Source of the DNA: Hymenobacter busanensis
GTDB lineage: Bacteria; Bacteroidota; Bacteroidia; Cytophagales; Hymenobacteraceae
NCBI RefSeq assembly: GCF_008727865.1
Contig: NZ_VTWU01000001.1
Coordinates: 434,001 to 498,000, forward strand
Direction: 5' to 3'
Length of the DNA stretch: 64,000 nt
The translations under genes were made by a program, and so were the position numbers. The notes under the pieces were generated by a model. It saw only the letters and a program-made list of their open reading frames with translations. It ran no database searches and was not told the DNA's origin. This document shows, piece after piece, positions 8,391 through 9,328 of this stretch; the first letter of the stretch is position 1, and each line of letters starts with the position of its first letter.

Positions 8391-8421
8391 TTTGTATTGC
8401 TGCGAATGATTCTTATATTTG
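8391..8421 (+). promoter_or_regulatory. Bacteroidota-type promoter for the phhA leader
   Basis: TTTG at 8391-8394 and TATATTTG at 8414-8421 match the Bacteroidota -33 (TTTG) and -7 (TAnnTTTG) consensus with 19 bp between them. Transcription would begin near 8425-8428, giving a leader of about 175 nt before phhA. This is the best promoter match found in the window. Confidence 0.75.
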
Positions 8422-8429
8422 GCCCTGTC

Positions 8430-8519
8430 ATGCTGAACCAGTCCATTAAGTGCAACTTTACGCTGTACGTCCGCCCCATGAATGGGGACGGAGCCGTGCC
8501 GTTGCATATAGGAGGATGA
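8430..8519 (+). CDS. putative 29-aa leader peptide upstream of phhA
   Basis: A 29-codon ORF whose ATG lies within a few bases of the predicted transcription start. It contains one Phe codon (8457-8459) and one Tyr codon (8466-8468), and its TGA stop (8517-8519) overlaps an ATG at 8516 that is in frame with phhA. A ribosome paused at the Phe/Tyr codons would leave 8488-8495 free to pair with the terminator arm, whereas one at the stop would cover it. This layout suggests attenuation, but one Phe and one Tyr are few for a classical leader, so translation is uncertain. Confidence 0.35.
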   Translation: MLNQSIKCNFTLYVRPMNGDGAVPLHIGG

Positions 8520-8588
8520 AGCTAAAGCAGCTACCGACCCTGATTCAACCTAGCCCGGCTCCGTACCACGGAGACCGGGCTTTTTTTT
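8488..8588 (+). promoter_or_regulatory. candidate attenuator: antiterminator and intrinsic terminator in the phhA leader
   Basis: The terminator stem pairs 8552-8564 (agcccggctccgt) with 8568-8581 (one bulged A) around a 3-nt loop, and T8 runs from 8581 to 8588. Segment 8488-8495 (acggagcc) is exactly complementary to 8557-8564 in the left arm, so the two pairings exclude each other. The terminator ends 14 bp before the preferred phhA start. Whether the switch senses an amino acid through a leader peptide or a ligand directly is unknown. Confidence 0.7.
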
Positions 8589-8602
8589 GCCCGAATGCCC
8601 TT

Positions 8603-9328
8603 ATGGAAGCCCGTCATCTGACCGCCGAAGACCACCTCGTGTGGAAAGTGCTGTTTGACCGCCAAACGGCGTTGCTGCACCGTCGCGCTGCTGCGCCCTT
8701 CATCAAAGGGCTGCAACAGCTGGGGTTGACCCGCGAGGCGGCCCCCAGCCTCGAAGAGCTCGACCAGCGCCTGCACCGCCTCACCGGCTGGAACATCGTG
8801 CCCGCGCCCGGCCGCATCGACGACCGCACGTTTCTGGGTTTGCTGGCCGAGCGCAAGATGCCCGTCACCCGCTGGATTCGGCCCATGCGGCACTTCGACT
8901 ACCTCTCGGGGCCCGACCTCTTCCACGATGCCTTCGGCCACTTGCCCTTGCTGACCGACCCGCACTGGGCGGCCTGGATGGAGCACTTCGGCCACATGGC
9001 CCGCCACCACCTGGCCGATGCGCAAGCCGTGGAGCAGCTGGTGCGCCTGTTCTGGCACACCGCCGAGTTTGGCCTGGTGCGCGAGGGGGAACACCTGCGC
9101 GTGTACGGCGCCGGTTTGCTGTCGTCGGCGGCCGAGCTGCACCACTGCCTCAGCGACGACGCGGTGCACACGCCTTTCGCAATGGAAGCAACGCTGGAAG
9201 CCTCGATCATCCGCGACGGGTTCCAGGCTTCGTACTTCGTGCTGCCCAGCTGGGAACACCTCTCCGACGCCACGGCCGAGCTGGCCGTGCGCCTGGCCGT
9301 GGTGCCGTGGCCGGCAGTGGCGCAGTAA
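8603..9328 (+). CDS. phhA: phenylalanine 4-monooxygenase (phenylalanine hydroxylase)
   Basis: A pterin- and iron-dependent aromatic amino-acid hydroxylase converting phenylalanine to tyrosine with O2. The 241-aa product has the facial-triad iron ligands His108 and His113 in FHDAFGHLPL and Glu155 in HTAEFGLV. It lacks the regulatory ACT domain of animal enzymes, as is usual in bacteria. The ATG at 8603 is preferred. An in-frame ATG at 8516 would add 29 residues encoded across the leader terminator and would be coupled to the upstream small ORF through an ATGA overlap. The gene sits next to tryptophan and shikimate genes but has its own promoter, so it may be regulated separately to balance phenylalanine and tyrosine. 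Confidence 0.93.
   Translation: MEARHLTAEDHLVWKVLFDRQTALLHRRAAAPFIKGLQQLGLTREAAPSLEELDQRLHRLTGWNIVPAPGRIDDRTFLGLLAERKMPVTRWIRPMRHFDYLSGPDLFHDAFGHLPLLTDPHWAAWMEHFGHMARHHLADAQAVEQLVRLFWHTAEFGLVREGEHLRVYGAGLLSSAAELHHCLSDDAVHTPFAMEATLEASIIRDGFQASYFVLPSWEHLSDATAELAVRLAVVPWPAVAQ

Follow-up and report, generated by a model that had tools for sequence, protein, structure and literature searches.

The stretch of DNA analysed here, referred to as the window, is 64 kb in length and comes from Hymenobacter busanensis (genome G000, contig C3, positions 434001-498000). Within it, a phhA paralogue is preceded by a compact leader, in which a promoter, a short upstream ORF (uORF1), a set of overlapping RNA helices and an intrinsic terminator are arranged one after the other. 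The features are given below in window coordinates.

8391-8394 and 8414-8421, plus strand: promoter of Bacteroidota type, TTTG, a 19-nt spacer and TATATTTG (direct reading)
8430-8519, plus strand: uORF1, MLNQSIKCNFTLYVRPMNGDGAVPLHIGG, 29 codons with one Phe and one Tyr
8451-8456 and 8501-8506, plus strand: P1 helix, TGCAAC paired with GTTGCA, closing the uORF1 hairpin domain (fold and nine-leader consensus)
8471-8491, plus strand: P2 hairpin within uORF1
8488-8500, plus strand: predicted antiterminator strand, pairing with the 5' arm of the terminator
8516-8519, plus strand: ATGA overlap at the uORF1 stop, with the start ATG of a second micro-ORF (uORF2) at 8516-8518
8552-8588, plus strand: intrinsic terminator, stem 8552-8580 with one bulged A, T8 at 8581-8588 (direct reading)
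8603-9328, plus strand: phhA paralogue, the putative regulated gene, a biopterin-dependent aromatic amino acid hydroxylase (Pfam PF00351, 2.7e-41)

An earlier reading, made from the sequence only, had described the promoter, the 29-codon ORF, the ATGA overlap, the T8 terminator and the complementarity between 8488-8495 and 8557-8564, and direct reading finds each of them in its place. The promoter follows the consensus known for Bacteroidota; a sigma-70 promoter scan of the window called no promoter at the phhA leader. The ATG of uORF1 lies 8 nt past the -7 box, and the start is presumably near-leaderless, with transcription likely to begin just a few nt before it. Positions 8488-8495 (ACGGAGCC) are the exact complement of 8557-8564 (GGCTCCGT) in the terminator arm. 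The ATG at 8516 is in frame with the phhA ATG at 8603, a link that is found in the window genome only among the nine leaders of the window type introduced below.

As a whole, the window leader folds with a z of -3.29 against dinucleotide shuffles, 1 of 200 shuffles being as good. The terminator at 8552-8588 was missed by a terminator scan of the window, we think because its stem contains the bulged A. A promoter-anchored scan for other leaders with amino-acid runs within the window found none. No Rfam family reaches its gathering score in the window, which agrees with the sequence-only reading, where no named riboswitch class had been recognised. When E values up to 5 are admitted, five sub-threshold leader matches appear, four of them over the terminator, among them Trp_leader, which scores 14.2 bits where the cut-off is 41. 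The window leader resembles the Rfam riboswitch and leader families in having a structured 5' leader with a terminator, but differs in that none of them matches it.

The hydroxylase paralogues

The window gene is a phhA paralogue in a clade whose leaders lack a run of Tyr codons. Against the cut-offs of 247 and 264.75 in the two bacterial NCBIfam phenylalanine-4-monooxygenase families, its protein scores only 232.4 and 231.3. The second phhA copy of the same genome passes both as a partial translation of 219 aa, and the protein L066, of the class A described below, passes one of the two. The window copy retains the His, His and Glu motifs (FHDAFGH, TAEFGL) whose positions we take to be the iron ligands. 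In class A, the position of the iron-ligand Glu is occupied by Gln in 36 of the 39 distinct proteins and by Glu in L060, L064 and L069; the motif TVEFGL has become TVQFG in 36 of the 39, with Gly for the adjacent Trp. Class A thus consists largely of conserved paralogues whose metal site is altered.

A further hydroxylase paralogue, 28-40% identical, is encoded at L073 (genome G012) and at the type-4 loci L167-L186. All three iron-ligand positions are replaced in L073, the one such protein inspected. The type-4 upstream regions end in a terminator in 20 of 20 cases, after an ORF of 29-33 codons without a Tyr run.

Conservation of the leader in relatives

The nine leaders of the window type come from eight genomes of the window's genus, the window included, and from H. 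gummosus (L044). Solirubrum puertoriconensis, Hymenobacter edaphi (L006), H. jeollabukensis and H. sp. 15J16-1T3B belong to this set. Promoter, uORF1, antiterminator and terminator are all present before phhA in all nine. The leader is kept even though the upstream neighbour, judged by eye, is of three kinds among these loci; in the window it is presumably a DAHP-synthase-like gene, with two other kinds found elsewhere.

A protein search (E <= 1e-15) found phhA in 185 of the 204 genomes of the family. A covariance model built from the nine window-type leaders, R1, matches in 143 of the 204 with the threshold set at E <= 0.1, though we take many of its weaker hits to be mere terminators. Beyond the genus, the 22 R1 matches with assigned loci all lie directly 5' of a phhA.

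From the stretches upstream of phhA, 121 distinct leaders with a terminator-like end were gathered, leaving out L139 and L151 (no tblastn hit in a short stretch) and L164 (a filler region). A TAnnTT[TC][GA] box stands 4-8 nt 5' of the ATG of a 24-32-codon ORF in 106 of them. The 15 without promoter and ORF by this rule are eight Tyr-type leaders (genus g1, where the box begins with CAT), three from other families, L073, L131, L135 and L162. Sorted by their peptide, the 106 leaders comprise class A (64), class B (24), class C (5), class D (1), the window type (9) and the Tyr-type (3).

A second covariance model, R2, was built from class A, the 64 leaders of genus g5, which we take to be Hymenobacter in the strict sense. 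It matches 106 of the 120 genomes of that genus at E <= 1e-3, once in 94 and twice in 12, and 64 of those leaders are the ones that built it. The R2 matches above 49 bits adjoin hydroxylase genes, as read by eye from the coordinates in part of the rows, with the gene place in G107 outside that reading. Sequence inspection places a hydroxylase downstream of the matches in G173, G177 and G158 (47.9 bits) and no hydroxylase gene at the weaker matches G157:C11 and G199:C248; nine further matches below 49 bits lay outside the inspection. In G101, an extra copy of the leader (L212, at about position 440; G101:C87:148340) stands before a decayed phhA remnant, and the intact leader with its gene follows approximately 2.6 kb downstream.

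uORF1 as a translated ORF

The comparison of these leaders supports the translation of uORF1. None of the 106 leaders has a stop in frame 0 over codons 2-23, while the shifted frames are open in 12 and 39. In 75 nearest-neighbour pairs, pN/pS is 0.58 in frame versus 1.03 and 0.96 in the shifted frames. In a codon-blind alignment of class A, the internal gap runs within uORF1 are multiples of three in 73 of 73 cases (four placements), as are 59 leading gaps, whereas downstream of uORF1 this holds for 81 of 325 runs (6 of 26 placements). Class B behaves alike within uORF1 (10 of 10 gaps, two placements), and offers just one internal gap downstream to set against them. The gaps were recounted without leading and end-of-sequence gaps, and the counts run over related rows, with six placements in all. 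The nine window-type sequences alone display no third-position bias by eye, a reading that the larger set reversed. On the open frame, the pN/pS and the triplet gaps together, the short ORF of the sequence-only reading can be regarded as real.

The same evidence bears on a riboswitch, in which the P1/P2 domain would bind a small ligand such as Phe, Tyr or a pterin, with uORF1 being incidental. Such a switch would make use of the stable, conserved P1/P2 hairpin domain, which overlaps the antiterminator, and a ligand-binding RNA was among the options of the sequence-only reading. However, the uORF1 frame is under selection and its gaps come in triplets, the stems vary between classes with no shared unpaired core seen, and Rfam gives no match. 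We consider a riboswitch very improbable.

A pN/pS of 0.58 also suggests some constraint at the level of the peptide, as would be expected of an arrest-peptide sensor, in which the nascent uORF1 peptide binds a metabolite and stalls the ribosome. Systems of the TnaC type provide the precedent. Yet the peptides vary greatly from class to class, and the residues that do recur, R-P and G-V-G, fall on the strands of P2 and of the antiterminator, which leaves a sensor of this kind unlikely.

The uORF1 peptide is reminiscent of the N-termini of Bacteroidota integrases. An origin as an integrase relic was rejected: Pfam returned nothing for the peptide, and a search of the window's own genome that admitted E values up to 10 showed no further copy.

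Alternative folds of the leader

Use of the antiterminator is likewise supported by comparison. Set against 100 shuffles of the uORF, the antiterminator beats at least 95 in all nine window-type leaders, in 61 of 64 of class A, in 14 of 24 of class B and in the single leader of class D; by the same test it does so in none of the five class C leaders and none of the three Tyr leaders of genus g6. The two exclusive folds of a transcription attenuator, as described in the sequence-only reading, are borne out for the window type by this test. Of the alignment cells of the antiterminator helix in class A, 93.6% are paired, versus 23-55% when the helix is slid. At one base of the arm the two folds part: 52 of 64 class A leaders lack the terminator pair there, while 62 of 64 retain the antiterminator pair.

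Covariation between the two strands is suggestive but not strict. Class A contains 19 doubly changed cells versus 4.6 in shuffles, and every slid control is lower on the covariation measures. Pairs changed on both sides and further pair types are not above shuffles in class A (136 and 321 of 500 shuffles being as high; 345 and 273 of 500 in a second analysis). The nine window-type leaders contain only one doubly changed pair, and P1 covaries little among them. Related genomes had been named by the sequence-only reading as the place to look for conservation and covariation. At the level of the family, the antiterminator segment and the short ORF are both conserved; the covariation stands for the doubly changed cells, but not for the measures that are least prone to relatedness.

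The remaining helices are more variable. Class A equivalents of P1 are paired in 70-72% of cells, a value understated by the fixed alignment columns because the register of the helix slides between sequences. A P2-type hairpin is present in 101 of 103 uORFs without a Tyr run, built from many different stems, and 328 of 2060 shuffles scored equally; in class A, P2 is paired in 85.6% of cells. Over the 103 leaders, the fold of the hairpin domain has a modest mean z of -1.29.

In equilibrium folding of the window leader with a masked ribosome, the antiterminator stands at 0.98 without a ribosome and at 0.98 with the P-site at codons 4-14. With the P-site at codons 18-26 its value is at most 0.02, and at the last codon it is back at 0.81. 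That the antiterminator also forms without a ribosome counts against a ribosome-mediated transcription attenuator, as does its weaker showing in classes B and C. We nevertheless regard the window leader as quite probably an attenuator of this kind, with control by ribosome position carried over from known attenuators.

Control codons and the Tyr-rich leaders

A run of control codons for the pathway amino acid is absent from uORF1 in the window lineage and present in the leader of the second phhA copy. The sequence-only reading had put forward a classical attenuator that responds to Phe or Tyr, which would act by way of the one Phe codon and the one Tyr codon in uORF1. The gene family, which acts on Phe and makes Tyr, favours such a response, as do a Phe TTT at codon 10 or 11 in all nine window-type uORF1s and the Tyr runs in related leaders of canonical phhA. 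However, Tyr occurs in five of the nine only. Among 103 uORFs lacking a Tyr run, 31 are without Tyr, 19 without Phe and nine without both, and relative to the hydroxylase genes Phe is represented 0.53x and Tyr 1.1x. Being neither enriched nor conserved family-wide, Phe and Tyr were rejected as control codons of uORF1, and for the window copy the proposal is hard to credit. It does fit the second phhA of the same genome.

Cys codons were examined in the same manner. In uORF1 they are 9.7-fold enriched in comparison with the Cys-poor hydroxylase genes, but their positions vary and the commonest TGC sits in the P1 strand, and they were not adopted as control codons.

The second phhA (L036, G000:C8:137585-138241, minus strand) is preceded by the leader peptide MSRFRQSFYYYYPTCQPSGFGIGRVCATAPEQTP, with FYYYY, and then by a terminator. 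Its seven orthologues in the genus have 3-5 consecutive Tyr in the leader peptide. Leader ORFs rich in Tyr likewise precede phhA in genera g3, g5 (at a tandem second copy) and g6. Outside the family, they precede phhA in 6 of 22 upstream regions (L029, L187, L189, L191, L192 and L197, from families f5, f9, f14 and f17), L192 having four Tyr without a run; the same search found no Tyr-rich ORF in the other 16 of the 22. Genus g3 (L023-L026, L028, L031, L202, L203, L205) has leader ORFs of about 47-60 codons with scattered C-terminal clusters of Tyr, e.g. YSYYSYYYRYYR, in a layout unlike that of the short leaders with a Tyr run.

Folded as single sequences, L036, L035, L038 and L165 have an internal loop of 7-9 nt between P1 and P2 that overlaps the Tyr codons, whereas in L018 and L032 these codons are for the most part paired. 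At this position of the internal loop, the window encodes Phe-Thr-Leu. In its layout, the window leader looks homologous to the Tyr-codon leaders of canonical phhA. They have in common the gene family and a terminator before the gene, and several g1 and g6 copies have a similar fold. The window lineage differs in lacking the Tyr run (the window uORF1 has one Tyr), in its diverged product, and in the Leu-rich uORF2 found in most relatives.

In a tree of the hydroxylases, 53 type-2 rows that lack a Tyr run make up one side of a branch with SH-aLRT 99, adjoining the Tyr-rich rows, the root being arbitrary. The tree covers 87 of 88 distinct proteins, with L045, a gamma-proteobacterial outlier, and most class B genes left out. 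L073, the fifty-fourth row without a Tyr run, could not be placed owing to the length of its branch, and the tree carries flags for L018 and other rows. Labels for the Tyr run were assigned by rule and by hand (L068, L032 and L033 among them). The simplest reading is that the Tyr run was lost once while the switch was kept; a gain of the run elsewhere would be the less simple alternative.

A second, Leu-rich micro-ORF

An ATG ORF of at least three codons, with its end 8-15 nt 5' of the GCCC in the terminator arm, is present in 83 of the 103 leaders without a Tyr run, versus a mean of 3.5 and a maximum of 12 in 200 rounds of shuffling the spacer. This uORF2 is mostly 4-10 codons long, and 198 of its 395 residues after Met are Leu. 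The Leu codons are CTC (80), CTT (70), CTA (44), CTG (2) and TTG (2), while in the hydroxylase genes CTG makes up 49%. Of the 41 five-codon uORF2s in class A, 40 encode Leu at codon 3 by three synonymous codons, which favours the amino acid over a pyrimidine tract. Among 32 Tyr-rich leaders, none has such an ORF before the terminator; in three, a short ATG ORF follows the terminator.

Within the window type, uORF2 is present in seven of nine leaders, the exceptions being H. edaphi (L006), where the start is lost, and the window itself. The window leader has a shift of frame ahead of the stop (CCGACCCTGATTC versus CCGACCTGAAATC), so that its ATG at 8516 reads through the terminator into phhA. 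The stop of uORF2 thus seems to have been lost, which may be a real change or an assembly error. Translation from this ATG would add an N-terminal extension of 29 residues to PhhA across the terminator (8516-8602).

These micro-ORFs allow for a tandem-ORF attenuator that senses Leu. The ribosome would be handed over from uORF1 to uORF2, slow decoding of CTC, CTT and CTA would decide read-through, and a Leu sensor would have replaced the Tyr sensor. The distribution of uORF2, frequent without a Tyr run and absent before the terminator of Tyr-rich leaders, agrees with this, and so do the constancy of Leu at codon 3 and the near absence of CTG (2 of 198). Several observations do not agree. By the rule used, 20 of the 103 leaders have no uORF2, and 14 type-4 leaders of genus g6 have, by eye, neither a Tyr run nor a Leu-rich uORF2. 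Masking of uORF2 in the folds did not favour the antiterminator, the window uORF2 is without a stop and reads into phhA, and there is no clear reason for a hydroxylase gene to follow leucine. We hold Leu sensing to be possible, though doubtful.

Proposed mechanism and comparison with known systems

The ribosome-mediated attenuator that we prefer is backed by comparison in four respects: the conserved leader, the coding signal of uORF1, the alternative pairings and the one clade that lacks a Tyr run. For its working, the following course may be envisaged. RNA polymerase would start just 5' of uORF1, and a ribosome would load at the near-leaderless ATG. The position of this ribosome as the 5' arm of the terminator emerges would set the fold. 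Where the antiterminator strand within uORF1 captures the arm, phhA would be on; where that strand is covered or sequestered, the terminator would form and phhA would be off. The window uORF1 has no run of control codons, and the classical sensing step is therefore missing. Candidate signals are the supply of leucyl-tRNA at uORF2, the general status of translation, or an effect of the nascent peptide. Decoding of Leu in uORF2 is the best lead for a ribosome pause in the form without a Tyr run.

In the clade of the paralogue, the Tyr run is absent, and uORF1, the hairpin domain, the antiterminator and the terminator are kept; most members also have the Leu-rich micro-ORF shortly before the terminator. 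A change of sensor after duplication is conceivable, if tentative: the Tyr run would have been lost and control passed to the micro-ORF of 4-10 codons by ribosome hand-over, with the micro-ORF of the window being fused to the gene. If that fusion is true, a ribosome on the window uORF2 would run through the terminator.

Attenuators with an amino-acid leader peptide are well known from systems of the trp, his and phe type. The window leader resembles them in its short translated ORF, its exclusive antiterminator and terminator, its T tract and its gene of amino-acid metabolism. It differs in that uORF1 has no run of cognate codons, the ORF spans the antiterminator strand, the start is near-leaderless and the promoter is of Bacteroidota type. 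Cases of amino-acid leader-peptide attenuators in Actinobacteria are reported in PMC1262725. For the Salmonella mgtCBR operon, PMC3641672 describes two short ORFs in the leader that are expected to control transcription of the operon. The presence of two short ORFs per leader is shared with these tandem attenuators. The genes are different, and uORF2 is mostly 4-10 codons in length, Leu-rich and close to the terminator. A literature search found no description of leader-peptide attenuation for phhA or for aromatic hydroxylases of Bacteroidota. To our knowledge, leader-peptide attenuation is little charted in Bacteroidota.

Significance for the hydroxylase family

The duplicated lineage retains its switch without Tyr codons in about a hundred genomes. 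The leaders represent a natural series, from a Tyr run, to no run, to no run with a Leu micro-ORF, to a micro-ORF fused to the gene, in which the evolution of a sensor is directly testable. The leader also bears on the role of the divergent hydroxylase paralogues, many of which have a changed iron-ligand position.
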